In this document: in pieces, positions 29,313 through 47,522 of the stretch
Layout of the letters: the number at the start of each line of letters is the position of its first letter
Numbering within the stretch: position 1 is the first letter of the stretch
Made by a program: the position numbers and the translations under genes
Virus record (IMG/VR): IMGVR_UViG_3300037156_000189
Location: 1 to 64,000 of that record
Direction: 5' to 3' (one strand)
Source of the DNA: a virus
DNA: 64,000 nt
Notes under the pieces: model-generated
What the model was told of the DNA's origin: nothing
What the model saw: only the letters and a program-made list of their open reading frames with translations
Databases searched by the model: none

Positions 29313-29330
29313 GGCTTTAAATCTCTCAAA

Positions 29331-29799: not shown

Positions 29800-29818
29800 A
29801 TTCTCTTCTTTCGAATTC

Positions 29819-31172: not shown

Positions 31173-31202
31173 TTGGATTTCTACCCACAAGTCTAGTAGA
31201 AT
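31173..31202 (+). promoter_or_regulatory. Promoter for the first HNH cassette
   Basis: TTGGAT (31173-31178), 18-bp spacer, TAGAAT (31197-31202). The predicted start point falls on the first bases of the structured leader at 31206. Confidence 0.55.
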
Positions 31203-31205: not shown

Positions 31206-31266
31206 GGGGTCAGGAGGCTGTAACCTCCGGCAAGCCTAATCTCCCCAAGGAGGAGACCATGACCCC
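31206..31266 (+). promoter_or_regulatory. Structured leader, copy 1 of 3
   Basis: P1: GGGGTCA (31206-31212) pairs with TGACCCC (31260-31266), which contains part of the start codon. P2: GGAGG-CTGTAA-CCTCC (31213-31228), directly stacked on P1. P3: TCTCC (31240-31244) with GGAGA (31252-31256) masks the ribosome site. GGCAAGCCTAAT is shared with copy 2. See findings. Confidence 0.7.
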
Positions 31267-32047
31267 AGAACCAGCATACATCGAATTGTCCACCAGCCGT
31301 GGCATCAGATTTTGGGTTGACATCGAGGACTACCCCAAGATTAGGTGCCGGCCGTGGTGGGCGCAAGCGACAGACCAAGGTACTTTCTACTTGACCAGCA
31401 GAGATACTGGGCTTGATGAGGACGGGCACAAGTGGCAGCGTTCTGTGCAGATCGCTCGCCTGATCATGGGCTTGGAGTCGGGTAACCCACTTGTTGTAGG
31501 CCACATTAACGGCGAGCCCCGCGATAACAGGAAGATCAATCTGCGCGTCTGCACTCAGCGCGATAATGCGCGGAACAGACGGATATCTTGCATCAATACG
31601 TCGGGGTTTAAGGGTGTATCGCAGCTAGGCTTGGATTGTTGGGCAGCCGTGATAAGGGTGAACGGCCACGCATACCATTTGGGCACATTCGATTCCGCGG
31701 AGAAGGCATACCAGGCTTATTGCGAAGCGGCAGCATGGGCTTTCGGGCAGTTTGCTAACTTCGGGGAGGTTCGTGACGATAATTTCCGATTGCCTTCAGT
31801 ACCGCGTTCTGTCGTGATGCCGCCAAGACTGGCGGATAAGAAGCCCATGCGGCGTAGGCTGGCCGAATGGACTCCTGGAATAAGGGAAGAGGTCCCTGCC
31901 GATTTTGCGGGGCACCGACACGAAGAGTTCTGTTCGGTTGCGTCTTCGGTTCTCAAGCCTCGCACTCAGAGAGCAAGAGCGGGCCTTGGAGTTTGGGGTT
32001 TGTCCAAGAGCCCATTGGCCATCAGGAGCCACTTCATTTTCTCCTAG
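31259..32047 (+). CDS. HNH homing endonuclease with AP2 domain (cassette 1)
   Basis: A 262-residue protein starting MTP. HNH core: VVGHINGEPRDNRKINLRVC near 78-97, then RDNARNR. AP2-like DNA-binding domain: SGFKGVSQ through KAYQAYCEAAAWAFGQFANF. It would nick or cut DNA at a specific site and promote its own spread. Compared with cassette 3 it carries about 85 extra residues after the FANFG end, which do not look like a known domain. Translation is likely controlled by the leader. Confidence 0.88.
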   Translation: MTPEPAYIELSTSRGIRFWVDIEDYPKIRCRPWWAQATDQGTFYLTSRDTGLDEDGHKWQRSVQIARLIMGLESGNPLVVGHINGEPRDNRKINLRVCTQRDNARNRRISCINTSGFKGVSQLGLDCWAAVIRVNGHAYHLGTFDSAEKAYQAYCEAAAWAFGQFANFGEVRDDNFRLPSVPRSVVMPPRLADKKPMRRRLAEWTPGIREEVPADFAGHRHEEFCSVASSVLKPRTQRARAGLGVWGLSKSPLAIRSHFIFS

Positions 32048-32131
32048 CGCCTGTTCACGTTTTAATGTTTGCAATTTATTATTGCTTCGGTTTATAATCC
32101 GTAATGCGTGAGGATCTAGGAGGTCGCCAAC

Positions 32132-32383
32132 ATGCTGACTGATTCAGAATTTTGCTGCCCTCTCTGCGGTCTCGTCCTCACTTCCCTCCATGCTTTCCAC
32201 CAACATCTCGCCAAAGTTCACAACTCTCGGTCTCAGCAGGCGGCTGTGGGACCGGGACCCACAGCGGAGCCCGGACCCGCCGCTGCTGTGGGACCGGGGC
32301 CTGCGGCGGAGCCCGCAGCTGCCGCAGCCAGTTATGTCAATGGCTGCCCAATCCTGGACGACAAGATCGAGGTTTGGTCATGA
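32132..32383 (+). CDS. C2H2 zinc-finger protein with Pro/Ala repeat tail
   Basis: An 83-residue protein. CCPLCGLVLTSLHAFHQHLA then KVH is a classic single C2H2 finger. A tail follows of two imperfect GPGPxAEP-type repeats, then YVNGCPILDDKIEVWS. AGGAGGTCGCCAAC lies before the ATG. Single fingers of this kind occur in phage transcription regulators. Target unknown. Confidence 0.75.
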   Translation: MLTDSEFCCPLCGLVLTSLHAFHQHLAKVHNSRSQQAAVGPGPTAEPGPAAAVGPGPAAEPAAAAASYVNGCPILDDKIEVWS

Positions 32384-32451
32384 GCAAGGATTCTTTTCCT
32401 ATCGTTGACCATTGTTTTGAGCCTCCCCAAGTACGATTCGAAAGTTCCTGA
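32380..32451 (+). CDS. Tiny hypothetical protein
   Basis: A 23-residue frame (MSKDSFPIVDHCFEPPQVRF) starting in an ATGA overlap with GAGG seven bases upstream. A CCCCAA/TTGGGG hairpin surrounds its stop. Evidence is only the junction and ribosome site. Confidence 0.35.
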   Translation: MSKDSFPIVDHCFEPPQVRFESS

Positions 32452-32466
32452 TTTGGGGAGGGTATC

Positions 32467-32580
32467 TTGAGCGGCAAGGTGTATCGTGTGTGCCCGAGGT
32501 GCGGTCGTAGGGTTGGTGTGAAAAAAGATGGTCGTCAGGTTTGCGGGGGTAAGTTGGGTTGTGGTTGGAGGACAAAATGA
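32467..32580 (+). CDS. Tiny zinc-ribbon protein
   Basis: A 37-residue protein from a TTG start four bases after GGGAGGG. CPRCG and a C-x5-C pair form a four-Cys ribbon, as in small phage proteins resembling Com translational regulators. ATGA overlap with the next gene. Function unknown. Confidence 0.6.
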   Translation: MSGKVYRVCPRCGRRVGVKKDGRQVCGGKLGCGWRTK

Positions 32581-32978
32581 GCAAGTATGTGGTTCCTGAA
32601 GGTATGCTGAAGGCGGTAGACAAGGCAATCGGTGAGATGCGACTTGGACAGGCCAGCCGGTTAGCCCCACGCAATGGCGAACTTTGGCCGAACGAGTTGA
32701 AGCAGGTAGCTTTGGAGGCGGCTATCGGATGGCTGGACGGGAAACTAACCGAATTCGACCAGCCCGGGGCCTTCGATCAGTACCGGAATGGTTACAACGC
32801 GGCTATCAGATGTGTGCGCCGGATGTTTCTTGCTCCCGAGCCGGAAGTACCAGAAGCGATCAAAGACTTGATGTGGAGTCAACCGCTCTATAAATGCGAC
32901 ACGGAGTTCTACGAGGCGATACCAAATGCCAACGCCTCTGTCCTCGAAGCCTACCGGCGCGGCAAGGCCGGAAAGTGA
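32577..32978 (+). CDS. Hypothetical helical protein
   Basis: A 133-residue protein (MSKYVVPEGMLKAVDKAIGE at the start). It contains LKQVALEAAIGWLDGKL and a Pro-rich C-terminal third. Start fixed by ATGA. No family recognised. Confidence 0.7.
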   Translation: MSKYVVPEGMLKAVDKAIGEMRLGQASRLAPRNGELWPNELKQVALEAAIGWLDGKLTEFDQPGAFDQYRNGYNAAIRCVRRMFLAPEPEVPEAIKDLMWSQPLYKCDTEFYEAIPNANASVLEAYRRGKAGK

Positions 32979-33078
32979 GTTCCTCGTCCTCTGCTGGATG
33001 GGGTGGGTGCCGGTTCCATGCCTGGCCGGTTGTTTCCGTGGGGAGCGCATTCGGAGAACCCAAGACGCTTAGAATTTA

Positions 33079-33092
33079 GTGCGATATCGCAC
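33079..33092. promoter_or_regulatory. 14-bp palindrome GTGCGATATCGCAC
   Basis: Perfect palindrome 17 bp before the RNA ligase start. A copy with one change (GTGAGATATCGCAC) lies just after the ligase gene. Together with flanking bases (TAGTG-GATATCGCACC) this is a direct repeat framing one gene, likely an operator or insertion scar. Confidence 0.6.
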
Positions 33093-33109
33093 CTTTTGGA
33101 GAGAAAGAC

Positions 33110-34039
33110 ATGCCGGAATTTAGAGAGTTCCCGTCTATTGAGCAGTACAGGAATGTCGTAAAACTCGTCCGTGAGAGAGCGCAGTTCGACGGAAAGCCTC
33201 TGCCTACGATCTTGTTTTACGGGTCCGTCAAGCTCCACGGCACGAACGCGGCTGTTGGATTCGATGAAGACGGTGAATTGTTCACCCAGTCCAGAAGCCA
33301 GATCATCACTCCGGATAATGACAATGCCGGGTTTGCGAAGTGGGTGCGGGCCAACGATCAGATGTTCCCGAAACTCAAGTCGGCTGTGATCTACGGGGAG
33401 TGGTGCGGGCAGGGCATTCAGAAGAACGTTGGAATTAGCCAACTCCCAAAGATGTTCGTCCCTTTCGCCATCAAGTCGGGAGACAGGTGGTGGTCCCCGG
33501 AAGAAATGAAGACGTTCTTCTTCCACTCCGGCTTGCGTTGCATCTACGATTTCCCGTCATGGTCGATGCTGATTGATTTCAGCCGGCCAGAAGAGTTTCA
33601 GAACGATCTTGTCGATCTGACCGTAAAAGTGGAGCAGCAGTGCCCCGTGGCTCTCGCGCACGGCGTTGAGGGTATCGGTGAGGGCATCGTGTGGTGGGCG
33701 GCTCCCTGTGACGGGTTTAACACTGAGGGGCTGGTATTCAAGGTGAAGGGCGAGAAGCACAGCGAAACCAAAGTCAAAACCCTTGCCGCCGTCGATGTGG
33801 AGAAGATTGGAAATATCCGGGAGCTGGTAGCGACGATTGCTACCCCTCACCGCATGGAGAAGAAACTAGAAGGGATTCCGGTGGATATCAAGAACACAGG
33901 AACCTTCCTAAAAGCGGTCACGGAAGACGTGATGAAGGAAGAGGCCGACACCATCGACGCCAGCGGGTTGCCGAAAACGGACGTGATGAAAGGCATTGCA
34001 ATGGCTGCAAAGAAGTTCTTCATGGAACAGGTAAAGTAA
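33110..34039 (+). CDS. RNA ligase, Rnl2-like
   Basis: A 309-residue nucleotidyltransferase that seals RNA nicks. Motif I SVKLHGTNAAV with the adenylated Lys 41; motif III VIYGEWCGQG (Glu 97); motif IV EGIVWW near 191; motif V LVFKVKGEKHS (Lys 211, 213). The C-terminal 90 residues are helical. In phage T4-like systems such ligases repair host-cleaved tRNAs. No tRNA or polynucleotide kinase gene is present here. Framed by palindromic repeats, it looks like a self-standing module. Confidence 0.92.
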   Translation: MPEFREFPSIEQYRNVVKLVRERAQFDGKPLPTILFYGSVKLHGTNAAVGFDEDGELFTQSRSQIITPDNDNAGFAKWVRANDQMFPKLKSAVIYGEWCGQGIQKNVGISQLPKMFVPFAIKSGDRWWSPEEMKTFFFHSGLRCIYDFPSWSMLIDFSRPEEFQNDLVDLTVKVEQQCPVALAHGVEGIGEGIVWWAAPCDGFNTEGLVFKVKGEKHSETKVKTLAAVDVEKIGNIRELVATIATPHRMEKKLEGIPVDIKNTGTFLKAVTEDVMKEEADTIDASGLPKTDVMKGIAMAAKKFFMEQVK

Positions 34040-34050
34040 GCCCAACTCTA

Positions 34051-34064
34051 GTGAGATATCGCAC
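34051..34064. promoter_or_regulatory. Second palindrome copy, GTGAGATATCGCAC
   Basis: One-base variant of the site at 33079-33092, 11 bp after the RNA ligase stop and 15 bp before the next gene. Confidence 0.55.
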
Positions 34065-34079
34065 CTCCCGGGAGCAAGC

Positions 34080-34304
34080 GTGAAAAGCATCAAGCGTGAC
34101 ACCAGAAAGCCGAGAATGCGTCAAAGGGATCGTGTGAACGCCCGCGAACAGTACGAGGAGTACAAGCGCCTGGAGGCCGAGTACCTGGCCGCGAGATGTG
34201 AGGATTCCTGCGACTACGGGTTTTCGGAGCTGCGGGACCGGGACCCGCAGCGCCTGACGCCCTATGACCGTATGTTCCTGCGGGCTTTGAAGATCAAAAC
34301 CTGA
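34080..34304 (+). CDS. Basic helical protein
   Basis: A 74-residue protein from a GTG start with GGGAGCAAGC upstream. Highly charged, Arg/Lys/Glu-rich (TRKPRMRQRDRVNAREQYEE). Two Cys around CEDSC. Probably binds nucleic acid; function unknown. Confidence 0.6.
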   Translation: MKSIKRDTRKPRMRQRDRVNAREQYEEYKRLEAEYLAARCEDSCDYGFSELRDRDPQRLTPYDRMFLRALKIKT

Positions 34305-34369
34305 GAAAGTTCAAAATAGCTCATCCACTTGTATCCGCCCTGGCGTACTATTCCTAGTGGAGATTCATC

Positions 34370-34921
34370 ATGCACGAACGTTACCGTTATCTTCTCGAAG
34401 TTCTCGAAACGACCCTCAAGACCGTCGAGCGCGTCACTCGCCGCATGGATAAGGAGGCCGCGGAGGACCGGGAGACCCTGGGCTTCCTGCTCCACGAGCT
34501 GAGAAACATCGAGCACGACCTGCACCCGCCCACCCCTCCCCCGCCACCTCCCCCTCCCCCTCCCTCTCCAACTTTCGCAACCAGCATCAGCTTCACGGAG
34601 ACTTCAATGAACCCGACTCAAGCAGGCAACACCCAAGTATTTACCGGCACGCTCGTTCCCGCCGGCGCAACTTACCCCGCGGACACCACGTTTACTCTGA
34701 CGTCCAACGATCCGGCGGTAAGCCCCACTGTGGATTCAACAGGGCTGGTGGTCAGCGTTACCTATCCCGACGGATGGGTTGAGAGCACCAGCACACCCCT
34801 CGCGTTCTCCTATGGCGCTGCCAGCGTCAGCGAGAACGGAGCCATCAGCGCGACCATTACCCCCTCGGCTCCCGTCGGCGGCGCGTTCCCCAGCGGAATT
34901 TCCTTTCAACAGTCTCAGTAG
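34370..34921 (+). CDS. Coiled-coil, polyproline and Ig-like domain protein
   Basis: A 183-residue protein in three parts: a charged helix (1-50), a polyproline spacer (PTPPPPPPPPPPSP, about 54-67), and a beta-rich Ig-like domain (70-183) with repeated Thr/Ser/Gly strands. Ig-like domains decorate phage capsids and tails, so it may be an exposed accessory protein, unusual in this early/accessory region. A terminator follows. Confidence 0.7.
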   Translation: MHERYRYLLEVLETTLKTVERVTRRMDKEAAEDRETLGFLLHELRNIEHDLHPPTPPPPPPPPPPSPTFATSISFTETSMNPTQAGNTQVFTGTLVPAGATYPADTTFTLTSNDPAVSPTVDSTGLVVSVTYPDGWVESTSTPLAFSYGAASVSENGAISATITPSAPVGGAFPSGISFQQSQ

Positions 34922-34944
34922 TCAGCGGCTTCCCATCACTAAAG

Positions 34945-34978
34945 AAGGCCTCGGCCCTAACCAGGACCGGGGCCTTTT
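34945..34978 (+). terminator. Rho-independent terminator
   Basis: Stem AAGGCC-CGG with complementary CCG-GGCCTT around a GCCCTAACCAGG-type loop, then TTTT. It ends the unit of the Ig-like gene; a promoter follows within 15 bp. Confidence 0.8.
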
Positions 34979-34990
34979 CTGCACCAATAG

Positions 34991-35022
34991 TTGACAACAT
35001 AATCTAATCGTGGCGGTATTAT
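34991..35022 (+). promoter_or_regulatory. Near-leaderless promoter
   Basis: TTGACA at 34991-34996, exactly 35 bp before the ATG at 35026, with CGGTATTAT around the -10 position. No ribosome site is present. Confidence 0.55.
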
Positions 35023-35025
35023 TGA

Positions 35026-35289
35026 ATGAGCGCGCGCGATCCCATCCCCCATCTTCCGTCTGCCCCGCCTCTCGCTCTCTCCCTTTCTACTCTCCCCACC
35101 GCGCGCGATCTTCTCTCCATCCAGGATTTCCGCCTGCGCCTGCGCAGGACTCTTCTCGACTGTCCCACCCTGACTCTCAAACAGGTTGCTCAAGCCCTCG
35201 GCGTCACCAGGCAGTACGTCGGAGCCCTCGTTGGCTCCCTCGGCCGCCCCACATGTGCTCGTCACGACAAGCCGGGGGCCGAAGCGTGA
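35026..35289 (+). CDS. Helix-turn-helix regulator
   Basis: An 87-residue protein. LTLKQVAQALGVTRQYVGAL is a clear helix-turn-helix with wing. The N-terminal 30 residues are Pro/Ser/Leu-rich. It has no ribosome site and probably comes from a leaderless mRNA. Function as repressor or activator of the accessory region is inferred. Confidence 0.65.
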   Translation: MSARDPIPHLPSAPPLALSLSTLPTARDLLSIQDFRLRLRRTLLDCPTLTLKQVAQALGVTRQYVGALVGSLGRPTCARHDKPGAEA

Positions 35290-35686
35290 TCAAGCCCAAT
35301 CCCACCTCAAGGAACTGACCGTACGGGTGGCCAGGGGCGAATCAGCGGAGCAGGCCGCCCGCGCTCTCGGCATCTCCCTCCCTGCTGCGGCGAAACTTGG
35401 CTTTAGAACCAAAGCCATTCGCCCCTCTCATGGCGGCGGGCGAAAGGATTGTTTTTGTTGGCGATGTAAGAAGGCTCAGGGACTTGTCACGCCGAGAGGG
35501 CCAAAGAGCGGAGCGGCGACAAGGGCCGAGGTCGAAGACTGGTTGGCGTGGACAGATCCCTATGACGGAACTCAGCTAACACAGGCAACGATTGGGCGCC
35601 TGGCGGGAACGCATCAGGGCGCAGTGTCCAGGATTGCGAGGAGAAGAGGAAGGTTCGCGCTACTTGACGAAGTTACCGATCAATAG
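35255..35686 (+). CDS. DNA-binding protein with two HTH units and zinc site
   Basis: A 143-residue protein if read from GTG 35255, overlapping the previous gene by 35 bp. ARGESAEQAARALGISLPAA and LTQATIGRLAGTHQGAVSRI are two helix-turn-helix-like units, with CFCWRC between them as a zinc site. The true start is uncertain: no good ribosome site is found, and TTG 35186 is an alternative. Confidence 0.55.
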   Translation: MLVTTSRGPKRDQAQSHLKELTVRVARGESAEQAARALGISLPAAAKLGFRTKAIRPSHGGGRKDCFCWRCKKAQGLVTPRGPKSGAATRAEVEDWLAWTDPYDGTQLTQATIGRLAGTHQGAVSRIARRRGRFALLDEVTDQ

Positions 35687-35806
35687 GCTGAGGCACCAGA
35701 ATGCCATTCCTGCCCATCCAAGGTTGACTCGTGGAGACGATGGGACATTCAATGCGGCTAGGGCCAACAGCACAAACGCGAAAACCAGAAGGATTGTTCC
35801 GAGCAC
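35660..35806 (-). CDS. Small membrane protein on opposite strand
   Basis: A 48-residue protein from a GTG start six bases after GGAGG. Two membrane segments (GTILLVFAFVLLALAAL and WAGMAFWCLSLLIGNF) are linked by a NVPSSPRVNLG loop, a pattern familiar from small phage membrane proteins. It converges on and overlaps the end of the preceding gene by 27 bp. Unusual leftward gene in a rightward region. Confidence 0.6.
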   Translation of the reverse strand: MLGTILLVFAFVLLALAALNVPSSPRVNLGWAGMAFWCLSLLIGNFVK

Positions 35807-35907
35807 AGACTACCTCCAAGACTAGATCATTGGATGCCTCACCCGCCCATCCACGCTGTACTCTTTGGATCACCCCTTAAATTTTCCTCTTGATAGTTGC
35901 TATTATT

Positions 35908-35916
35908 TGGTATACT
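35908..35916 (+). promoter_or_regulatory. Extended -10 promoter (TGG-TATACT)
   Basis: TATACT with an upstream TG, and a weak CTTGAT/TTGATA -35. The transcript would begin at the first bases of the structured leader at 35917. Confidence 0.6.
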
Positions 35917-35985
35917 GGGGGTGTCTCCAGTTGCATCTGGAGGTCCCACACTCAAGCGCCTTGGAGGACGATCGGTGACACCCCC
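35917..35985 (+). promoter_or_regulatory. Structured leader, copy 3 of 3 (middle in position)
   Basis: P1: GGGGGTGTC (35917-35925) with GACACCCCC (35977-35985), overlapping the GTG start. P2: TCCAG-TTGCAT-CTGGA (35926-35941), with the same 5-bp/6-nt geometry as the other copies but different bases. GTCC (35943-35946) can pair GGAC of the ribosome site (35966-35969). CAAGC is conserved. Confidence 0.7.
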
Positions 35986-36685
35986 GAAGAAAAGTCTAGT
36001 GCAGATTCGCGCAGAGCGCGAGCAACGTTGTGCTGAGATGCGAAGGTTATCAGGTCAAGGAAAAAATCAGACAGAGATTGCAGAATTGTTTGGGCTTACG
36101 CCTCAACGTGTAAGCCAGTTGGTGGGGAAGGCCCGCGGCCCTGGGTGTAACTATCCCAGGACTGTATCAGAGCGCATAGATGCCGATCAAAAAGCGTATT
36201 TAGAAATTCAAATGTGCAGCGGCGAGAAGTTTCTTTTGGACCCAGAAGAATTGGAGAAGGTCAGCGGATTCGGTTGGCGTACGCGCTCAAACCGTTCTGC
36301 ACAAGCTCGTTACGTAGTTGCCCCGCTGGTTGAAATTGTGGATGGAAAGAAGTTATCCACTACCTTGCAACTTGGTCGTGTGATCATGGGGCTGGGTCGA
36401 GGCGACCCGCGCGTTATCGATCACATTAACGGGGACACTTTGGATAATCGTAAGGCTAATTTGAGGGTGTGTACTAACGCGGAGAATATTAGAAACAGGT
36501 GCAGGGACAAAGACAACGCTTCTGGATTTAAAGGGGTTACATGTGAGGGCAAGAAATGGTTAGCCCAAATATTTCACAATGGGCGGGGGTACCGTTTAGG
36601 TAGGTTTTCTACTCCGGAAGAGGCGCACGCTGCGTATTGCGCGGCGGCCGTGCGTTTCTACGGTAAGTTTGCGAATTTTGGTTGA
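35975..36685 (+). CDS. HNH homing endonuclease with HTH and AP2 domains (cassette 3)
   Basis: A 236-residue protein from GTG, starting M-T-P like the other two. An N-terminal HTH (GKNQTEIAELFGLTPQRVSQ) is unique to this copy. HNH core: VIDHINGDTLDNRKANLRVC, then NAENIRNR. AP2 domain: SGFKGVTCEGKKWLAQIFHN, ending AAAVRFYGKFANFG. Probably a mobile endonuclease. Its leader would hide the start codon. Confidence 0.88.
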   Translation: MTPPKKSLVQIRAEREQRCAEMRRLSGQGKNQTEIAELFGLTPQRVSQLVGKARGPGCNYPRTVSERIDADQKAYLEIQMCSGEKFLLDPEELEKVSGFGWRTRSNRSAQARYVVAPLVEIVDGKKLSTTLQLGRVIMGLGRGDPRVIDHINGDTLDNRKANLRVCTNAENIRNRCRDKDNASGFKGVTCEGKKWLAQIFHNGRGYRLGRFSTPEEAHAAYCAAAVRFYGKFANFG

Positions 36686-36733
36686 AAAAGATTTATTGCA
36701 AACCTTCGACTTTATGTTATGCTTTGTCCTGTT

Positions 36734-37108
36734 ATGTCAGACAAGTCCCCCACTACCGTAGCTGAGAAGCGCCTGCTCTGGCTGATCCGTGATATCGTGG
36801 CGCAGTCCTGCGCTGACTACAAGAAAAGCGCTACCCCCGCTTACGATGATCCCATCCATGTCTTCTCTGGTTTCATCGGCATCCATGCCGAGGCGATCGC
36901 GCTGCTTGCCGAGTATGGGTTGGTAAAGGACCTGGCCGACAACGGCGGCCGAGTGGTCAGAGGGAAGCTGTTGCCGGTGGGCGAGGCAGCCAAAGTGCTG
37001 AAGACGGGGCCATTCCGTCCGAAGGAGGATGTGAATCCTCTCCCATCCGCCGCGGACCTCGATGCCGTGGCGCAAGAAGACTCAGCGCGGGAGGCCACGC
37101 AGAAATGA
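36734..37108 (+). CDS. Hypothetical protein
   Basis: A 124-residue helical protein (MSDKSPTTVAEKRLLWLIRD at the start). Acidic C-terminus. A TTGCAA-16-TATGCT promoter (36696-36723) lies directly before it and leaves almost no leader. Overlaps the next gene by ATGA. Unknown function. Confidence 0.65.
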   Translation: MSDKSPTTVAEKRLLWLIRDIVAQSCADYKKSATPAYDDPIHVFSGFIGIHAEAIALLAEYGLVKDLADNGGRVVRGKLLPVGEAAKVLKTGPFRPKEDVNPLPSAADLDAVAQEDSAREATQK

Positions 37109-37476
37109 CCGACAAGCCCCCCATCATTCGGATCGATCCCTGCAGAAGCCGTGTTTTTGCTTGGATCGAGTTCAACTCCGATGCCTCTGAGGTGAGGGAC
37201 GAAGTCACAAATCGTTTGGTTCAGCCGGCGGGGCCTGCGATCACAGCGAGATATCGAACCACTGGCATGGAGATGACGGCGTGGCCGATCACAGAGGAAG
37301 AGGCGAGGCGCATCATGCAGCCCGGCGCCGAGTTCGACTACTCCTCCGGCCGCGCCTGGTCCCAGATCGTGATGCCTTACAAATCCAAGAGAACGGTCAA
37401 ATCAGGCCAAAGACAAGAGACGGTCAAACAACGTACCGAGATCGAGCAGCGCGCGGGAAGGCGGTGGTTGGCGTGA
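37105..37476 (+). CDS. Hypothetical protein
   Basis: A 123-residue protein. N-terminal half is beta-rich (IRIDPCRSRVFAWIEFNSDA), C-terminal half charged and basic (YKSKRTVKSGQRQETVKQRT). Coupled to the ATPase gene by a GTGA overlap. No family recognised. Confidence 0.65.
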   Translation: MTDKPPIIRIDPCRSRVFAWIEFNSDASEVRDEVTNRLVQPAGPAITARYRTTGMEMTAWPITEEEARRIMQPGAEFDYSSGRAWSQIVMPYKSKRTVKSGQRQETVKQRTEIEQRAGRRWLA

Positions 37477-39188
37477 GACAATCTCTCCGAATCAGCGAGT
37501 CCCTCTCTCTTCCTTCCAACGCGGTGACTCAGACCTTCGCGTGCATTGGTCGCAAAGGTGCCGGGAAAACATACCTCGCGTCTATGCTGGCTGAGCAGAT
37601 GCTCGATCTCGGTGCGCAGGTAGTCATCATTGATCCTGTCGGAAATTGGTGGGGGCTACGTGTAGATGCCGATGGGAAATCCAAAGGCAAAGACATCTTC
37701 ATTGCCGGCGGTGAGCGCGGAGACGTGCCAGTCCTGCCTGAATCCGGTGCGCGGTTCGCGCGGCTGGTTGTCGAGCGCAATGTTTCGATGGTGTTGGACG
37801 TTTCTGGTTTTCGTCAGGGCGAGCGCAAGCGATTTGCTGCCGATTTTGCTGAGGAGTTTTTTCATCTCAAGAAGACTCAACGTAGTGCTGTTCATCTGTT
37901 CGTTGAGGAAGCGCAATTGTTTGTTCCTCAGCGGTGCGGTCCTGAAGAAGCGCGAATGCTCGGTGCGTTTGAGAACATCATTCGACTTGGCAGGAATTAC
38001 GGAGTGGGTGCGACTTTAATTTCCCAACGGCCGCAATCGGTCAATAAGGAAGTTCTCTCCCAGGTCGAATGCCTTTGCGTGCTTCAGGTCAACGGTTCGC
38101 ACGAGCGAAAGGCTCTGGAAGAATGGGTGCAGGAAGCCGGTGCAGACCGAAAGCTCGTCGGCGAGTTGCCGGGGTTGTCGCAAGGTCAAGGCTATGTCTG
38201 GTCGCCTTCTTGGCTCAGGGTATTCGAGCGGGTCAAGTTCGCTAAGAAAGTTACGTTCGATGCCTCGGCGACTCCGGAAGTCGGTAAGGCGACGAAGGCC
38301 GCGTTGTTGACTGCTGTCGATGTTGAAGCGCTAAAGGCCGATCTCCAGTCGGTGATCGCCAGTGCTGAGAAAGACGATCCGAAAGTTCTGCGGCGAAAGA
38401 TTGCAGAATTGGAGCGTGCTGTGAATCAGACGGCTCCTAAAGATTCTGAAGAGACAAAACGGCGGTTGGCAGTAGCCGAGGAAGATGTTCGCAAGCTTGC
38501 ACAGTCGTTGTCGGAGGCACAACTTCGCTGTAACACGCTTCAGGGCTACATGGCTGCGTTGCAGAAGATTCAGGCGGCAGCAGAAACGATGCAGCCCCTG
38601 GAGTCTGTCGTAGTCACGCGATCTGAATATCGAAGCCCTGTGACCCCTAAGTTGAAGCCACAGCGAGAATGGCCGAAGCCGTTCAAGTCTGTTGCGGCTT
38701 CGTCGAACGGTCATCTTCGCGCCGGAGCACGCCGCATGCTCGCGTGTCTGTGCCAGTGGCTTCCTGCCGGTCGCACTGAGTCTCAGGTTGCTGCGCAGGT
38801 GCAGATGAAGAAAACCGGAGGTACGTGGTCGGCTTACAAATCCGATCTGCGCAATGGCGGTTACATCGAGATTGGTGGTGGCGGCCTCTGGTACGCTACC
38901 GATCAGGGACGCAATTATTTAGGCGCGGATGTTCCCGATACACCTACCACTACTAATGAGGTTGTTGAACTCTGGGGTCAGAAACTTCGCCTTGGTGCGC
39001 GGAATATGCTGGATGTACTCGTGCGGCACAAAGGCCGGGCGATTGCCAAGGATGAATTGGGCCAGGCTGTGAACATGGAGTCGAGCGGCGGAACATTCTC
39101 CGCTTACCTCTCTGATCTCAAGCAGGCGGGACTGATTGTAGTGGACCGTGACGGCGTGCGTGCGAATACGGAGACATTGTTGCTATGA
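37473..39188 (+). CDS. HerA/FtsK-like ATPase with two C-terminal winged helices
   Basis: A 571-residue protein. Walker A IGRKGAGKTY near 25-34, Walker B HLFVEEAQLFVPQ, and a QRPQSVNKEVLSQ motif are typical of HerA-type DNA-translocating ATPases. A coiled coil follows. Two repeated winged-helix units (ARRMLACLCQWLPAGRTESQ; ARNMLDVLVRHKGRAIAKDE) share G-GT-SAY-SDL. Possible roles are DNA pumping, partition or defence. No nuclease or Sir2 partner is adjacent. GTG start overlaps the upstream stop. Confidence 0.85.
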   Translation: MRQSLRISESLSLPSNAVTQTFACIGRKGAGKTYLASMLAEQMLDLGAQVVIIDPVGNWWGLRVDADGKSKGKDIFIAGGERGDVPVLPESGARFARLVVERNVSMVLDVSGFRQGERKRFAADFAEEFFHLKKTQRSAVHLFVEEAQLFVPQRCGPEEARMLGAFENIIRLGRNYGVGATLISQRPQSVNKEVLSQVECLCVLQVNGSHERKALEEWVQEAGADRKLVGELPGLSQGQGYVWSPSWLRVFERVKFAKKVTFDASATPEVGKATKAALLTAVDVEALKADLQSVIASAEKDDPKVLRRKIAELERAVNQTAPKDSEETKRRLAVAEEDVRKLAQSLSEAQLRCNTLQGYMAALQKIQAAAETMQPLESVVVTRSEYRSPVTPKLKPQREWPKPFKSVAASSNGHLRAGARRMLACLCQWLPAGRTESQVAAQVQMKKTGGTWSAYKSDLRNGGYIEIGGGGLWYATDQGRNYLGADVPDTPTTTNEVVELWGQKLRLGARNMLDVLVRHKGRAIAKDELGQAVNMESSGGTFSAYLSDLKQAGLIVVDRDGVRANTETLLL

Positions 39189-40390: not shown

Positions 40391-40974
40391 TGCCTCCCAC
40401 TTTCACGATTATTACTGCCACGATTCAAAGAGAGTCCCTTGTTCGCTGCTGCGCCTCTGTGAATGCTCAGTCTCTTACTGATTGGCAGCATCTGATCGTC
40501 ATGGACTGCGCGATAGAGGATGTGAATTCAGAGTTGATGTTTTCCCTGGCGCATCCTCGCCGCCGATTCTACTGCTGTGGTCAGCGCTACAACGATTTCG
40601 GTAACTCACCGAGGCATCAGGCTTACGAGTTCGCCACGGGAGATTTTGTATACTTCTTGGACGATGATAACGAGTTTGCGGATTCCGACGCGCTGCAGCG
40701 CATGTCCGACGCGCTTGCCAAAGCGGGTTGTCCTCTGGTTTCCATCTTTCCAATCATCCGTGATGGCCAGAGGTTCTTCAATGACCCTCCCGGCCTTTGC
40801 CTGACCGACACTGCCAACTTCTGCCTGCGCCGCCAGATTGCGCAGTGGCTTGCGGGGCCGGAGTACGAAATGGATGGGATCTTGATCGAGCGGTTGGTCA
40901 AGAAGTGCGGATACGAAGCGTTCCCCGACGTCGAACCGATCGCTATCATGGAGAAATCGAATCATGGAAAATAG
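40390..40974 (+). CDS. Glycosyltransferase family 2
   Basis: A 194-residue GT-A enzyme. TFTIITATIQRESLVRCCAS and WQHLIVMDCA give the nucleotide-binding N-terminus, and FVYFLDDDNEFADSDAL contains the D-x-D metal site. It lacks membrane segments. Overlaps the methyltransferase by TGATG. Acceptor unknown. Confidence 0.85.
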   Translation: MPPTFTIITATIQRESLVRCCASVNAQSLTDWQHLIVMDCAIEDVNSELMFSLAHPRRRFYCCGQRYNDFGNSPRHQAYEFATGDFVYFLDDDNEFADSDALQRMSDALAKAGCPLVSIFPIIRDGQRFFNDPPGLCLTDTANFCLRRQIAQWLAGPEYEMDGILIERLVKKCGYEAFPDVEPIAIMEKSNHGK

Positions 40975-41815: not shown

Positions 41816-42329
41816 TTTCAATCTCTTTCAAAGAGTCGGCAGTTTCTTCGAGCAGCGTCGTGAGTACAGAGCCCAAGCTCTCAAGAACCTCCGTAAGCGC
41901 GAGGGACTTCCTTCCCCAGTTGACGAGAACGGTTCTCCTCTCGAAACTCGCATGGATGACTACGGCAACGCGACATATCACAATGCTGCGGGAGAGAAGG
42001 TCGACCGAGTTCTCTTCGCCGGGGCCGGCAAGGACGGCAAGCCCGGATCGTTCGCTGTCGGCCAGCGCCGCGGTGATCCGCTCGACGAGGCAACTCGGAA
42101 CTGGGCCAGTGGCCACTCAGCTTTTGAAATCCTCGACGTCGCAGAAGACGGTCGTCGCCTTTCCGATGAGCTGAACGATCTCGACCGGGATTCCAGCACC
42201 TTCGCCATGGCTGAAACTGTGTCCCACGGCGTCGAGTCCGAGCAGGCGCCGGGATTTGAGATCACTGGGACTTCGGACGAAGAGATCGACCAACGGCTGC
42301 AGGAGTTTTTGAAGAGAGGTCCGCGGTGA
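41808..42329 (+). CDS. Hypothetical acidic protein
   Basis: A 173-residue acidic protein (MVDFNLFQRVGSFFEQRREY at the start). It contains DDYGNATYHNAAGEKVDRVL and a helical C-terminus. ATG overlaps the upstream stop by 8 bp. No family recognised. May belong to the glycosylation cluster by position only. Confidence 0.65.
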   Translation: MVDFNLFQRVGSFFEQRREYRAQALKNLRKREGLPSPVDENGSPLETRMDDYGNATYHNAAGEKVDRVLFAGAGKDGKPGSFAVGQRRGDPLDEATRNWASGHSAFEILDVAEDGRRLSDELNDLDRDSSTFAMAETVSHGVESEQAPGFEITGTSDEEIDQRLQEFLKRGPR

Positions 42330-42778
42330 TGAGCGATAGGCCAAAGATTGTGTGTCTCTGCGGGTCCACGCGGTTTCGCGATCAGTTTGCTCAAGCGAAC
42401 TATCGTGAAACGCTGAAAGGGAGCATAGTCCTGAGTGTGGGCTTTTATGTCCATGCCGCAGATGAGTGCCCGAACTGCGATGCGTCGCAGAGCTTCGCGA
42501 AAGAGCAGAATGCTGAGGGTCCGCAAGGAAAGTGTTGGCAGTGCGGTGCAGACCTCGGCTGTACGTCGGAGCAGAAGATCGCTTTGGATGAACTTCACAA
42601 GCGCAAGATTGATTTGGCCGACGAGATTTTGGTGGTTACCGTTCAAAGATATATCGGCGAGTCTACGTTTTCTGAGATAGAATATGCTCGGCAGTGTGGT
42701 AAGTCTGTCCGATGGCTAGAGCCTACTGCTGAGGAGCGATTTCATGAGTTGGCCGAAAGGCGTGCCGCGCGCACCTGA
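42329..42778 (+). CDS. Nucleoside 2-deoxyribosyltransferase-like / DUF4406-like protein
   Basis: A 149-residue protein. IVCLCGSTRFRDQFAQANYR is the CGSTR motif of the nucleoside-deoxyribosyltransferase-like family common in phages. A CPNC and CWQC insertion (residues about 48-73) is a zinc ribbon inside the fold. ILVVTVQRYIGESTFSEIEY forms the second conserved block. Probably acts in nucleotide metabolism. Start in a TGATG overlap. Confidence 0.8.
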   Translation: MSDRPKIVCLCGSTRFRDQFAQANYRETLKGSIVLSVGFYVHAADECPNCDASQSFAKEQNAEGPQGKCWQCGADLGCTSEQKIALDELHKRKIDLADEILVVTVQRYIGESTFSEIEYARQCGKSVRWLEPTAEERFHELAERRAART

Positions 42779-43358
42779 AACGATTGCAAAAATGAAGGCG
42801 TCTTCTCCGCGCAGATCAGGATGGCGCCATTCGGAAGAGACAAAGTTGAAAATAGCAGCGGCTCGTCAAGCGCGCGAAGCGTTAAAGCCGCCGAAGGCTG
42901 CATGTAAAAAACGAGGTCGAAATGGGTGGAAGTGGACTGATGAGCAGAGGGAAAAATACAGTGCAAGTCGCAAAGGACGCCATTTTAGCGACGAGGCAAG
43001 AGCACGGCTTGCTGACAATAGGCGTATGTTTTGGGATAGTCTCCCCTCTGAAGATCGAGAACGACGATTGGTGCGTTGGCGAGGGTACGGTTCTGAAGGT
43101 GTGCGTTCACGACGCCCTAGCGGCGCTTGTCAAAAGTGTGGAGTTTATCGTCAGTCTCTTCATCGTGAGCACATTATTCCGCGTTGGAAGGGTGGAAAGG
43201 ACGATAGCGAGAATATCCAATGGCTTTGTGCAAATTGCCACGAGGATAAGACTCGCGAGGATCTCCGTGGTATACCGGGACCGAACAGAGGTAAAAAACC
43301 AAGCGAGGAGACACGAGTTAAAATGCGTGCGGCCGCGCTTCGTCGTTTGAGTCGCTAA
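42744..43358 (+). CDS. NUMOD3-HNH homing endonuclease
   Basis: A 204-residue protein. NUMOD3-like repeats (APETIAKMKAS, SEETKLKIAAARQA, SDEARARLADNRR, and PSEETRVKMRAAALR at the end) surround a zinc HNH core: CQKC, HREHIIPRWKGGKDDSENIQ, CANCHEDKT. It overlaps the end of the preceding gene by 35 bp, with GAGGAGCG before the ATG. Unlike the three other HNH genes it has no structured leader. Confidence 0.9.
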   Translation: MSWPKGVPRAPETIAKMKASSPRRSGWRHSEETKLKIAAARQAREALKPPKAACKKRGRNGWKWTDEQREKYSASRKGRHFSDEARARLADNRRMFWDSLPSEDRERRLVRWRGYGSEGVRSRRPSGACQKCGVYRQSLHREHIIPRWKGGKDDSENIQWLCANCHEDKTREDLRGIPGPNRGKKPSEETRVKMRAAALRRLSR

Positions 43359-43430
43359 CAGTGGTAGTACGAATATTGAAATTGAGTATCCAGTAACGAG
43401 AGGTAAACCTGTGCGATATACGGAGTCAGT

Positions 43431-43709
43431 ATGAGTAACACGGCTGACACTCGTCCTGATCTTATTCACCCGTTCCAGTTCCAACCGGGGCGTGAGTCTG
43501 AATGCAGCCACTTTTACCCGTGGCTCGGCGGATACGTCAAGTGCAACGCGAAGGAATCCAGTCCAATTCATCGCAATGGCCCACATCTGCTGACGGCGAA
43601 AAACGGCGAGCAGGCTTATTGCCTTGGCGATCCTGCTGTTTGTCAGTTTTGTGCGGAAGGCCGTCCCGCAACATTTTACAACTGGAAGGCGGCTGAAGAT
43701 GCCCGCTGA
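43431..43709 (+). CDS. Hypothetical Cys/His-containing protein
   Basis: A 92-residue protein with scattered Cys and His (CSHFYPWLGGYVKC, CLGDPAVCQFC), a possible zinc-binding protein. No strong ribosome site beyond GGAG. Function unknown. Overlaps the next gene by 11 bp. Confidence 0.65.
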   Translation: MSNTADTRPDLIHPFQFQPGRESECSHFYPWLGGYVKCNAKESSPIHRNGPHLLTAKNGEQAYCLGDPAVCQFCAEGRPATFYNWKAAEDAR

Positions 43710-43923
43710 CTTTTTCCTCTGTCCCGGTTGCGAACTGCCGGTAGCCGAAGAAGGTTCTCTTTGCGAGTCCTGTGCTGCATGGCAGGCACAGAAGTTGGCA
43801 GCTATGAATTCCGAGTATCAGGATAGCTTGGCGAGGCAAGTGCGTCGCCGTATGAGCCCTGGCGCGCGATTCGCCGAAGACTTGTCGGATATGGCGAAGG
43901 CCGTGGAACGGAGTCGGAGATGA
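43699..43923 (+). CDS. Zinc-ribbon protein
   Basis: A 74-residue protein with CPGC and CESC pairs near the N-terminus and a charged helical C-terminus (RQVRRRMSPGARFAEDLSDM). Start within the end of the previous gene. Function unknown. Confidence 0.65.
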   Translation: MPADFFLCPGCELPVAEEGSLCESCAAWQAQKLAAMNSEYQDSLARQVRRRMSPGARFAEDLSDMAKAVERSRR

Positions 43924-44129
43924 ACATAACCGGTGTCTACCAGTTCCCGCAGAATCGGTGTATTTGCTCCATCTGCAACTTCATGTGCTGGACGGAGCAG
44001 AAGAGCGGAAAAGTGGTGGTGTCGCATCCGACTCACCCGACTTGTCCCAATTCGCATCAGGCTTTCGAAGTGCCTGTGACTGAGTGCAAACCACTACCGC
44101 CAGAGTTTTTCTCGGACCAGATAGGATAG
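43920..44129 (+). CDS. Cys-rich hypothetical protein
   Basis: A 69-residue protein (MNITGVYQFPQNRCICSICN at the start) with CICSIC, CW and HPTC, probably zinc binding. Start overlaps the upstream stop by ATGA. Function unknown. Confidence 0.65.
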   Translation: MNITGVYQFPQNRCICSICNFMCWTEQKSGKVVVSHPTHPTCPNSHQAFEVPVTECKPLPPEFFSDQIG

Positions 44130-44131
44130 CA

Positions 44132-44887
44132 ATGACTCAAGAAATCGAATCCATCAAGCCCGCCCTGTCGGTCATTCTTGACGACGGTGACTTCATCGTC
44201 AATTCCACCGGCCCGGTCGGCAAGGCAATGGCGCAGGCAATCTTACCTCTCGCCGCCGGTGCGAGGAAAGTGACGATCATCACAGATGGTGAGATGAAGG
44301 TGATGAAGCGGAATGGGAACGGGACTAACGCGGGACAAGCGCCGCAGACAGCGGCTCAGGCGATGGCTCAGCGCCGGCCTGCGCTCCCCGATGGTCCCGA
44401 TGTCCAGGATTCTTTTGTCTCCGATATCGAAACTGGAGTTACGGGCGAGCAGGCCATGGGTGAAACTCCTGCCCCTACTCCCGGCCCGTCCGAGCCAGTC
44501 AAGATCCCAACTAAGCGCAAACCAGTCATTTTCCAGGATGCTGCCGCCCCACCGGCTCCCGAGCTGGCTGAGGAGGAGATGGACCGGCTTATGGCCGAGG
44601 CGCAGCAGGCGGAAGCGGAAGCGGCCAAGGTGGCCGAGGATCAGCGGTTCCAGCGGCAGCAGGCTGTGCAGGCTAATCAGGAGCCCTCTGATGTTCCTGC
44701 CGAGCAGCCCGCTGAGGCCGCCAAGCCACGGCGTCGTGAGCGCCAGCTTGCCACCACGGGCCGGCCCTGCGGCCGCTGCGGCGGTGGCGGGAAGGTCATG
44801 GGGGACGCCGGGTTCACCGGAGCCTGTCCCGTGTGCCATGGTGAGGGCCAGGTGAAGACCTGGGACCGGTCGTTGAAGGTTCGATAG
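44132..44887 (+). CDS. Disordered protein with DnaJ-type zinc finger
   Basis: A 251-residue protein. N-terminal 60 residues are folded (MTQEIESIKPALSVILDDGD). A long Pro/Ala/Glu-rich middle follows. The C-terminus carries CGRCGGGGKV and CPVCHGEGQV, one DnaJ-type C-x-x-C-x-G-x-G repeat pair. ATG 44132 lies two bases past the previous stop. Probably an RNA- or protein-binding accessory; unknown. Confidence 0.7.
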   Translation: MTQEIESIKPALSVILDDGDFIVNSTGPVGKAMAQAILPLAAGARKVTIITDGEMKVMKRNGNGTNAGQAPQTAAQAMAQRRPALPDGPDVQDSFVSDIETGVTGEQAMGETPAPTPGPSEPVKIPTKRKPVIFQDAAAPPAPELAEEEMDRLMAEAQQAEAEAAKVAEDQRFQRQQAVQANQEPSDVPAEQPAEAAKPRRRERQLATTGRPCGRCGGGGKVMGDAGFTGACPVCHGEGQVKTWDRSLKVR

Positions 44888-44930
44888 GCTGAATCTGTAG
44901 TATGGTAATGTTGCAAACCAAGGATACCTG

Positions 44931-45533
44931 ATGGCTCACATGCCCGATTCCGCGCTTCCTCTCTGCAACAATCCGCAGCATCCTGCGGGTCTCCCGAGGC
45001 GTATGATCTATCTTCAGACCAAGGACCAGGCCCATGTCTTTGGCTGCCAGGCCTGTCGCGACGTTAATCGTAAGCTCTCTGTCCGCGTGATTACCGATCA
45101 GTTCTACCGGCGCGAGGTCAGGAAGTCCCTGGCCGCATCCGGCCAGTTGCTGAAGGGTCCGATGCGCCGTCGTGAACGCTCTCCCATGGAACTTGGCCTG
45201 ATGCGGGAGATGAGTCTCGATGCCGCTCGCCGCGACACTCGCTCTCGCACGATCGATTGGGATTCCGAGCATCGGCGTTCCCGCGACGGCAAGTACGAAT
45301 TGGTTCGCTACGAGAGCCTGGGCAACGGCAGCCTGCGAATCCAGATGGCGATCAACGGCAAGCTCTGCCCTCAGATGGATGATCATGTAGCCAGCCGGGA
45401 AGAGTTCAAGACTGAGGAAGCATACTGGAGCCGGGTCGCGCGAGGCAGCGAGCTTATCCTGCACCTCTACGGCGATCCTAGAAATCCGTTGACGCCGGAA
45501 GAAAGCGCGCAGCGGGAAAGTGAAACTTACTAA
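44931..45533 (+). CDS. Hypothetical protein with N-terminal Cys motif
   Basis: A 200-residue protein. LCNNPQHPAG and FGCQACRDV supply a four-ligand zinc site. The rest is basic and helical, ending in ELILHLYGDPRNPLTPEESA. No catalytic signature. Function unknown. Confidence 0.65.
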   Translation: MAHMPDSALPLCNNPQHPAGLPRRMIYLQTKDQAHVFGCQACRDVNRKLSVRVITDQFYRREVRKSLAASGQLLKGPMRRRERSPMELGLMREMSLDAARRDTRSRTIDWDSEHRRSRDGKYELVRYESLGNGSLRIQMAINGKLCPQMDDHVASREEFKTEEAYWSRVARGSELILHLYGDPRNPLTPEESAQRESETY

Positions 45534-45553
45534 GTCAGAACGGAGAACCAATC

Positions 45554-45787
45554 GTGAATTTTCAAATTACCTACGCTCAAGTCGATCCTGCGAATAACAG
45601 CATCAACAGGCAGCAGACTTTGTACAACTGCATTATCGACGGCAGCGTTGTGCGCTCCGATCTTGTTGTATTCCGGGACGAGGCCAACACCGGCTCGGTA
45701 GTCGCAGTAGTTCCGCTTGCCGGGGTGCTGATGATAGTGGAGAGCGAGCATTTGACTGCCCCGGCCGCTCCTGCTCCGGCCGTCTGA
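45554..45787 (+). CDS. Small beta-rich protein
   Basis: A 77-residue protein from a GTG start (MNFQITYAQVDPANNSINRQ), with TGSVVAVVPLAGVLMIVESE as alternating strands and an Ala/Pro tail. Function unknown. Confidence 0.65.
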   Translation: MNFQITYAQVDPANNSINRQQTLYNCIIDGSVVRSDLVVFRDEANTGSVVAVVPLAGVLMIVESEHLTAPAAPAPAV

Positions 45788-45834
45788 GCGGGAATCTCTT
45801 AACAGGTCCAACCAGAATCGAAAGGATTACACAG

Positions 45835-46362
45835 ATGTCTCGACTTGCCGCAGTCCGCACCGGTCAACCAACTCAAGGTTTAGGCACAGTTCCTAACGGA
45901 AAGCATCTGCCTGCCGGCATTGATGATCTTGAACCGCCTGTGACTATAAACCCTCGCTCCGCGCATTCCGCCGCGGCTGCGACTGTGACGGCCGCCTGGC
46001 TGTCGCTGACCGCAACCGAGCTGGAGGTCCGGAAGTATTTCAAGTCGATCCCGGTTCCTTCCGGCTTGGAGGCTCTGGCAAAGATGCGCCACCAATGCGA
46101 CCTGGCGGCCGAGACTCTTCAGGGCCGGATGGACGAATCAAATACCGAACGCTGCACTGGCTGTGGGAAGACGCTTGAGGAGACGCATAAGAACCAGTGG
46201 CTGATGATCGGGGCGGATGTTGACGCTGAGACAGGCGTGCCGATGCCGTACCGCTTCTGCGGCCCGTTATGTATTCGTGAGCGCAATCGCGAGAAGATGC
46301 TTCCGAAGGAACTGCGCGATCAGAAGCGGTTTGATGGCGCCGACATGGGCGAGGTGCGGTGA
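45835..46362 (+). CDS. Zinc-finger hypothetical protein
   Basis: A 175-residue protein. CTGCGKTLEETHKNQWLMIG and YRFCGPLC give four Cys ligands, as in TRASH-like or other treble-clef zinc fingers. N-terminal 60 residues are disordered. TGATG overlap with the next gene. Function unknown. Confidence 0.65.
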   Translation: MSRLAAVRTGQPTQGLGTVPNGKHLPAGIDDLEPPVTINPRSAHSAAAATVTAAWLSLTATELEVRKYFKSIPVPSGLEALAKMRHQCDLAAETLQGRMDESNTERCTGCGKTLEETHKNQWLMIGADVDAETGVPMPYRFCGPLCIRERNREKMLPKELRDQKRFDGADMGEVR

Positions 46363-46676
46363 TGTCTCAAAAATACGAAGACATCCTCAAAAACTCCGTC
46401 GAGAAGCTCTCCCTCGGTCCGAATGACATCCTTATTGTGAAGTCTCAGGAAGCGATGTCGACGTTTCTGGAGATGACCCAGGCCGGTGTCGGCTTCTCCA
46501 AATATGCGAACCCGATTCTCCTTGTCCCCGGCGGCCTGGAGAAGGCAACACGGGACGATCTTCTCGACGCGATCAGGATTCTGGATGAGAAGATCGCGAA
46601 CGAAGGAAAGCCGGAGGAAGCGGTCAGCCGGATCATTACTGATTTGCATGCGCCGCTTGTAAGGAGAGTCCAATGA
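46362..46676 (+). CDS. Hypothetical protein
   Basis: A 104-residue protein (MSQKYEDILKNSVEKLSLGP at the start), alpha/beta. Contains NDILIVKSQEAMSTFLEM and ANPILLVPGGLEKATRDDLL. Start ATG 46362 by TGATG overlap; a GTG one codon upstream is possible. No family recognised. Confidence 0.65.
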   Translation: MSQKYEDILKNSVEKLSLGPNDILIVKSQEAMSTFLEMTQAGVGFSKYANPILLVPGGLEKATRDDLLDAIRILDEKIANEGKPEEAVSRIITDLHAPLVRRVQ

Positions 46677-46858
46677 GCCACACCTACTCCATCTTGAATC
46701 CGCGAGTCCCTTGCTGCGCGCAGATATTTCTTGATCTTTCCAACCGGTCCAACACCTATTGCCAACGCGAACTGGGCCATCCGGATGAGGCCGTGAAGGA
46801 ATTTCCCGGCGGGCACAACATTGTCGACGAGCCTCCTGTGGCGAAGGTACAGAAATGA
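46673..46858 (+). CDS. Small Cys-containing protein
   Basis: A 61-residue protein with CCAQIF and CQRELGH, perhaps a zinc site. Overlaps both neighbours by ATGA. Function unknown. Confidence 0.6.
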   Translation: MSHTYSILNPRVPCCAQIFLDLSNRSNTYCQRELGHPDEAVKEFPGGHNIVDEPPVAKVQK

Positions 46859-47136
46859 CCCGTCCCCTGAGCCCGATTCATGCGCCGCTCGACGCCGACC
46901 CGCCGTCGAGCCCGCCACCGATTCCGCGCATCGCCCGCCTTGCCAAGCTCGATTCGCGCCCGCTGTCCGGTTTGCCGCGTTCGCTCGGCCCCGGCGGAGC
47001 ATCCTCCGCGTTCGCGCGGGCAGTGGACAAGGCGCTGGTCGATGAGATGGCGGATCAGTTGCGAGGATTAGACACGGGCGAGAGTGAGATCGGCGATTGG
47101 GCCGGTGAGATCATCGCTGCGTTTTGTGAGGAGTAA
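46855..47136 (+). CDS. Pro-rich hypothetical protein
   Basis: A 93-residue protein. N-terminal 55 residues are disordered and Pro/Arg-rich (PIHAPLDADPPSSPPPIPRI), then a helical acidic C-terminus. Overlaps the next gene by one base (TAATG). Function unknown. Confidence 0.6.
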   Translation: MTRPLSPIHAPLDADPPSSPPPIPRIARLAKLDSRPLSGLPRSLGPGGASSAFARAVDKALVDEMADQLRGLDTGESEIGDWAGEIIAAFCEE

Positions 47137-47426
47137 TGGACTCCATTTCTCCGGTTCTGACAGAACTCGAAGTGCCCGCTGAGCAGGTCGTCGCGCTCGG
47201 GCAAGATGGGTTCTACCCGATCGTTGTTGCGCGCGTCAGTTGGCGAGATAAAGACGAGAAGCTCATGGCGGTGTGCTCCTACACTCGCTACCGCTTCACC
47301 GCCGCGGAGAGGGAGTTGATTTTGAAAGGGGCGGACTTGATCCTGGGGCAGCCGCATCATGGTCAGATGATGCCGGTATCGCTGCAGTTGGCGATGCCAG
47401 GAGAGTATCCGGTACAGGAGAAATAA
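47136..47426 (+). CDS. Hypothetical protein
   Basis: A 96-residue protein with beta-strand pattern (VVALGQDGFYPIVVARVSWR) and MMPVSLQLAMPGEYPVQEK at the end. It is the last gene before the second-strand leader cassette. Its stop codon lies inside a 10-bp AAATAAAGTA that recurs 24 bp later. Function unknown. Confidence 0.65.
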   Translation: MDSISPVLTELEVPAEQVVALGQDGFYPIVVARVSWRDKDEKLMAVCSYTRYRFTAAERELILKGADLILGQPHHGQMMPVSLQLAMPGEYPVQEK

Positions 47427-47461
47427 AGTATCCAGTTGGAGGGTAAATAAAGTACACTTAT

Positions 47462-47522
47462 GGGGTCAGGAAGTTGTAGCTTCCGGCAAGCCTAATCATT
47501 CTGGAGGAATGATCATGACCCC
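47462..47522 (+). promoter_or_regulatory. Structured leader, copy 2 of 3, adjoining terL
   Basis: P1: GGGGTCA (47462-47468) with TGACCCC (47516-47522). P2: GGAAG-TTGTAG-CTTCC (47469-47484). P3: ATCATTC (47495-47501) with GAATGAT (47507-47513), loop TGGAG with the ribosome site. GGCAAGCCTAAT is identical to copy 1, while both P2 and P3 stems differ by compensatory changes. Confidence 0.75.

Follow-up and report, generated by a model that had tools for sequence, protein, structure and literature searches.

Homing endonucleases are abundant in phages, and restraint of DNA cutting by such inserted enzymes is known mainly from T4 and Aeh1. Three plus-strand genes for freestanding HNH-AP2 homing endonucleases in a 64,000-base window (positions 1-64,000 of the 74,763-base IMG/VR virus record IMGVR_UViG_3300037156_000189) raise the question of whether structured leader RNAs control their translation. 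The leaders, also on the plus strand, lie at 31206..31266 (leader A), 35917..35985 (leader B) and 47462..47522 (leader C), where an initial annotation had described them. On the evidence of their sequences, the leaders of A and C, together with relatives in other phages, are a real, narrow covarying RNA family, of which B is a weaker, partial member. We somewhat favour the reading that the leaders sequester the start codon and ribosome site and gate translation of the endonucleases, each structure having the gene's own promoter embedded in its 5' edge.

Fold of the leaders

The sequence bears out the three previously described pairings. P1, which closes over the start codon, pairs GGGGTCA with TGACCCC in A (31206-31212/31260-31266) and C (47462-47468/47516-47522), and GGGGGTGTC with GACACCCCC in B (35917-35925/35977-35985). 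P2 is stacked directly on P1, has a 6-nucleotide (nt) loop and reads GGAGG/CCTCC, GGAAG/CTTCC or TCCAG/CTGGA among the three. It lies at 31213-31217/31224-31228 in A, at 35926-35930/35937-35941 in B and at 47469-47473/47480-47484 in C. P3 is TCTCC/GGAGA in A (31240-31244/31252-31256) and (A)TCATTC/GAATGA(T) in C (47496-47501/47507-47512), B having only a possible GTCC/GGAC pairing (35943-35946/35965-35968). Between P2 and P3 we found a mini-hairpin of 2-3 base pairs (bp) that had been missed (GG-CAAG-CC, GC-CGAA-GC and CAC-CAAA-GTG among the copies; 31229-31230/31235-31236 in A, 47485-47486/47491-47492 in C), which gives A, C and three relatives from other phages a four-way junction. The Shine-Dalgarno sequence lies in the P3 loop and 3' strand in every full copy. 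The single plan proposed for all three leaders thus stands for A and C, which are full members, whereas B keeps P1 and P2 only and has a rod as its energy minimum.

The genes differ in build. Gene A (31259..32047; start codon 31259-31261) encodes an HNH_3 and AP2 protein of 262 amino acids (aa) beginning MTPEP; gene B (35975..36685; GTG start 35975-35977) encodes 236 aa with HNH_3, AP2 and an N-terminal sigma-70 region-4-like helix-turn-helix; and gene C (47515..48228; start codon 47515-47517) encodes 237 aa beginning MTPPQ, its N-terminal region being Cys-rich. All three proteins have HNH_3 and/or AP2 domain matches. An HNH_3 family search of the whole 74,763-base record returned exactly these three genes, C by a weak match, so all detectable HNH genes there carry a leader.

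Family members and covariation

As an independent test of the family, we built a covariance model (R1) from leaders A and C alone. It matched L004:4948-5008 (L4; 53.1 bits, expectation value (E) 8e-11) and L006:1157-1215 (L6a; 38.6 bits, E 6e-7), both directly before an HNH-AP2 gene and reaching over its start codon, at loci that had been fetched by protein similarity and not by leader. L004 belongs to a sister phage, its gene being orthologous to C and 80% identical, and L006 to a distant phage with few shared genes. A descriptor found a sixth copy, L6b (L006:4932-4991; P1 GGGCATC/GATGCCC), before another HNH-AP2 gene. For this model both L6b (11.1 bits, in a region of 81 bases) and B (10.7 bits, in one of 91 bases) are weak matches. 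A second model, R2 (P1, P2, mini-hairpin and P3 with an AAGCCTMMTC junction), matches A, C, L004 and L006:1157 at E<=5e-16, these being its own training sequences.

In the alignment of A, C, L4 and L6a, 100% of cells are paired and six pairs are changed on both sides, with a covariation score of 0.461 against 0.201 in shuffles (0/500 reach the real value) and at most 0.176 with the partners slid. MAFFT misaligned L6b and B in an alignment of all six, and their pair tables were made by hand; with these two added, 13 of 19 pairs have both bases changed and still pair by Watson-Crick rules (P1 4/7, P2 4/5, mini-hairpin 2/2, P3 3/5), in agreement with the initial claim that stem bases differ while pairing persists. 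We regard covariation across these four to six sequences as strong, if short of R-scape-grade evidence given how few they are. C and L4 being orthologous and at the same locus, the changes in P2 and P3 took place in situ, with the junction GGCAAGCCTNATC retained. This junction is common to A, C and L4 (one substitution) despite their changed stems; it differs in L6b (CACCAAAGTGAC) and in B.

Energy folding gave the same four-way junction, with a P1 of 7 bp, for C, the L004 leader and both L006 leaders, and for leader A a close variant (-26.6 versus -24.9 kcal/mol for the plan, 1.7 lower). Leader C has a fold z-score of -3.4, with 0/200 shuffles folding as well; A folds better than 193/200 shuffles and B better than 182/200. 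The P1 and P2 plan arose in 1 of 120,000 dinucleotide-shuffled leaders versus all six real ones, and a similar plan with the start codon anywhere had 23 matches on 1.1 Mb of other sequence. Homologues with compensatory changes in two other phage contigs and the scarcity of the plan among shuffled leaders are the two outcomes on which the initial annotation had staked its proposal, and both favour it.

Could the resemblance of A and C be descent only, two recent copies of one mobile cassette whose similarity has no regulatory meaning? Their leaders are identical at 45 of 61 bases (74%), as such copies would be. The 100 bases on either side, downstream coding sequence included, are no more alike than shuffled sequence, however, the proteins share 29% identity across 142 residues, and the stems have changed with compensation, also between the orthologous C and L4 leaders; we consider this explanation very improbable. 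A and B are the closer protein pair (42%), yet their leaders are dissimilar. Leader and protein histories thus appear to differ, as if the leader moved separately from the protein. A bolder extension, that a regulatory RNA module of promoter, cloverleaf leader and first codons is exchanged between distant homing-endonuclease genes independently of the protein, its conserved junction being opened by a recognising factor, seems to us doubtful.

No Rfam family matches the leaders, which the initial annotation had not recognised as a described RNA: Rfam covariance models gave nothing at E<=1 on them in a scan of the whole window, and at E<=10 leader C had no meaningful match. Inspection by eye showed no core matching a ribozyme, tRNA-like or riboswitch reading. 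HEARO (ogeu) RNA, the HNH endonuclease-associated long guide RNA of OMEGA (IscB) systems, is likewise a structured RNA beside an HNH gene; the leaders described here are 60-69 nt including the start codon.

Promoter position and proposed control of translation

The best -10-like hexamers in the 60 nt upstream are TAGAAT for A (31197..31202), TATACT, with an extended TGG, for B (35911..35916), TACACT for C (47453..47458; tied), TATACT for L4 and for L6a, and TATGCT for L6b. They end 3, 0, 3, 3, 3 and 2 nt before P1, within 0-3 nt in 6/6, when a -10-like hexamer (score >=5) has a probability of 0.0025 per position. By standard sigma-70 spacing the transcript begins about 7 nt after the -10 hexamer, which puts the predicted +1 inside the 5' arm of P1 (base 4-7), near 31209, 35923 and 47465 in A, B and C. 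Leader B shows this most clearly: with its TATACT abutting P1, transcription could hardly start at P1 base 1. The -10 box noted earlier is 3-6 nt too close for the proposed transcript beginning at P1 base 1. Just upstream of A, B and C we saw no terminator-like site.

A model of control, predicted from the structure, covariation and -10 position, follows. RNA reading through from upstream would contain the whole of P1 and be poorly translated. RNA from the gene's own promoter would begin at about P1 base 3-7, retain some 3-4 nt of the 5' arm, fail to close P1 and be translated. The endonuclease would then be made only upon firing of its own promoter, probably in one phase of infection, limiting harmful cutting. 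The predicted cost of opening the start region is 12.5-16.2 kcal/mol in read-through RNA versus 7.3-11.2 kcal/mol when the RNA starts 7 nt downstream of the -10 hexamer. The family was found only before HNH-AP2 genes, and translational control, one of two functions first suggested, is the simplest interpretation of these sequences; the other, a conserved homing element, finds no support, as the family is the leader of a gene and not a gene boundary.

Because the P1 helix draws on the first codons, the RNA limits which residues the protein can begin with. The proteins start MTPE (A), VTPP (B) and MTPP (C), in line with the earlier proposal that P1 requires M-T-P, but the sixth copy, with its own matching P1, starts MPTT, so a different P1 imposes M-P-T in place of M-T-P. 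Here, then, an RNA shapes the beginning of a protein.

Hairpins that abut a -10-like hexamer and hide the Shine-Dalgarno sequence precede 11/58 HNH open reading frames (ORFs) versus 16/1134 others across all loci examined (p 1e-8; p 5e-6 without the window's three leaders). Several observations weigh against gating by an embedded promoter. The descriptor behind this enrichment was drawn up with the leaders already known, and the effect weakens without any family member (5/52 versus 16/1134, p 0.0016). A consensus scan of the leaders found no -35 box matching the -10 hexamers. Leader B has its energy minimum, at -29.8 versus -18.0 kcal/mol for the plan, in another fold, a rod that the same P1 closes. 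P3 still covers the Shine-Dalgarno sequence in the shortened RNA, and the modelled release is partial (for C, from 14.5 to 11.2 kcal/mol). Finally, both L006 copies are antisense to their neighbours with no obvious upstream sense transcript, yet their P1 is perfect: either some upstream transcription goes unseen, or P1 is part of the gene's own RNA, which is then switched by other means.

That second option is a switch within the transcript, in which the gene's own RNA holds the whole structure until a signal opens it, be it the endonuclease, a host or phage RNA-binding protein, a metabolite or temperature. We judge it rather unlikely but keep it in play, because the perfect P1 of the L006 copies, which also covaries, is unexplained if transcription starts inside P1 and nothing reads in. 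The architecture is also more elaborate than a plain hairpin, and retention of GGCAAGCCTNATC among A, C and L4 while stems changed is what a binding site would show. That junction, however, is not kept in L6b or B and no invariant ligand core emerges; no Rfam riboswitch or protein-binding leader scores, and in every copy the -10 spacing places +1 within P1.

Gating by an embedded promoter, the reading we prefer, closely resembles a known principle that the initial annotation, partly supported overall, had missed. For T4 I-TevI, I-TevII, I-TevIII and segB and for mobE of Aeromonas phage Aeh1, a freestanding HNH gene, long transcripts hide the ribosome site while RNA from the gene's own promoter is too short to fold (PMC2988022). 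Here too the genes are phage homing endonucleases, the RNA hides the ribosome site, and the putative promoter lies so near that its transcripts are predicted to lack the 5' part. Unlike those structures, described as hairpins, the leaders here form a recurrent four-way-junction family before HNH-AP2 proteins of differing build; the copies have sequence and covariation in common, and their 3' arm falls within the first codons. Unlike in T4, no late box of the T4 type was recognised at the leaders. The translation-initiation structures of T4 soc, e and 49 also hold the start region in an RNA helix, for e in longer early transcripts (PMC3014915, PMC2988022), but these are not homing genes and do not make up a shared RNA family. 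The control principle is therefore not new in outline; what appears new is a covarying leader family using it. That the family occurs in other phages points to embedded-promoter gating as a possible general feature of mobile endonucleases, and supplies a testable sequence signature.

I-TevI also represses itself at an operator overlapping its own late promoter (PMC2988022), and the inverted repeats flanking the promoter start here could similarly be endonuclease half-sites. HNH-AP2 proteins have DNA-binding domains, and the P1 arms vary between genes as target specificities would. Such an operator acts on DNA, whereas here RNA pairing is conserved, and it would leave unexplained the covarying P2, P3 and mini-hairpin and the Shine-Dalgarno sequence within P3 of every full copy. 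We think this explanation improbable, though an operator may act in addition to RNA-level control.

Reduced leaders, further searches and neighbouring features

The leader is present at every HNH-AP2 gene seen in genomes G000 and G003, and at the orthologue of C in the sister phage G002. In G002 a further HNH-AP2 gene separates two genes that are neighbours in the window's genome (L164 8900-9551, L162 1260-1325), forming an occupied and empty insertion-site pair. The leader of this second HNH-AP2 gene of G002 is a reduced form with TACAAT, GGG, AGCAGG/CCTGCT (codons 3-4) and a Shine-Dalgarno hairpin, CACAC-TTAGGAG-GTGTG. Among isolated phages, the closest relatives of the further HNH-AP2 protein are encoded by HNH genes of the Tunturiibacter phages Tunturi_1 and Tunturi_2. 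The leader in Tunturi_2 (PP885685.1, L180 600-680), a cultured Acidobacteriota phage, has TATAAC, GAGCAGG/CCTGCTC and the Shine-Dalgarno hairpin TGTCT-TGTGAGG-AGACA, and shares the plan of the reduced G002 leader (-10, P1, Shine-Dalgarno hairpin, start codon) and has a wholly different P3 stem; the gene arrangement is the same in Tunturi_1 (L187). These reduced leaders lend support to gating by an embedded promoter, and cultured phages with a related leader make the hypothesis accessible at the bench.

Two related HNH genes elsewhere (L045 4805-4905 and L049 4246-4346) have the Shine-Dalgarno sequence paired in different, compensated hairpins (CCTCCTTCT/AGAGGGAGG and GTCCCTCC/GGAGGGAC), both immediately preceded by a -10-like hexamer.

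No further members turned up when 2.9 million viral contigs and about 85,000 genomes were scanned with leader patterns; the patterns demand an A/C-like junction, would miss divergent members and did not include a P2-less pattern with the Tunturi P1. The first leader pattern had 0 matches in the collection scan, and the second had 7 viral matches, the sole member being the known L006 locus. None of the second pattern's 52 bacterial matches was convincing, the best (L104, E 0.003) falling within a long ORF that has no relation to HNH genes. Searches of phages and plasmids with the leaders by blastn gave nothing meaningful, and among 80 HNH-AP2 loci fetched with the B protein the leader occurred only in L006. 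HNH genes of isolated phages (Rhizobium, phiEco32, Dickeya, Pseudomonas, Geobacillus, Erwinia, Bacillus, Pam5, Salmonella, Microcystis) mostly abut or overlap the upstream gene, with no space for a leader.

Elsewhere in the window, a CPEB3 (hepatitis delta virus-like) ribozyme match at 22981-23054 was sub-threshold (27.4 bits versus a cut-off of 35) with several pairs broken, and is probably chance. A PF09414 RNA-ligase-family gene lies between leaders A and B (33110-34039). ORFs 37281-39188 and 48360-50054 both match terminase large-subunit families (phrog_2666 and phrog_2), and the sister phage has an extra 418-aa ORF (G002:9713-10966) that is 65% identical to part of the latter. At 29247-29310, between the divergent ORFs 28654-29265 (-) and 29304-29840 (+), an inverted repeat, TTCTCATTTCGATG...CATCGAAATGAGAA around GTTTAAAC, takes in the start codons of both ORFs and looks like a symmetric operator.

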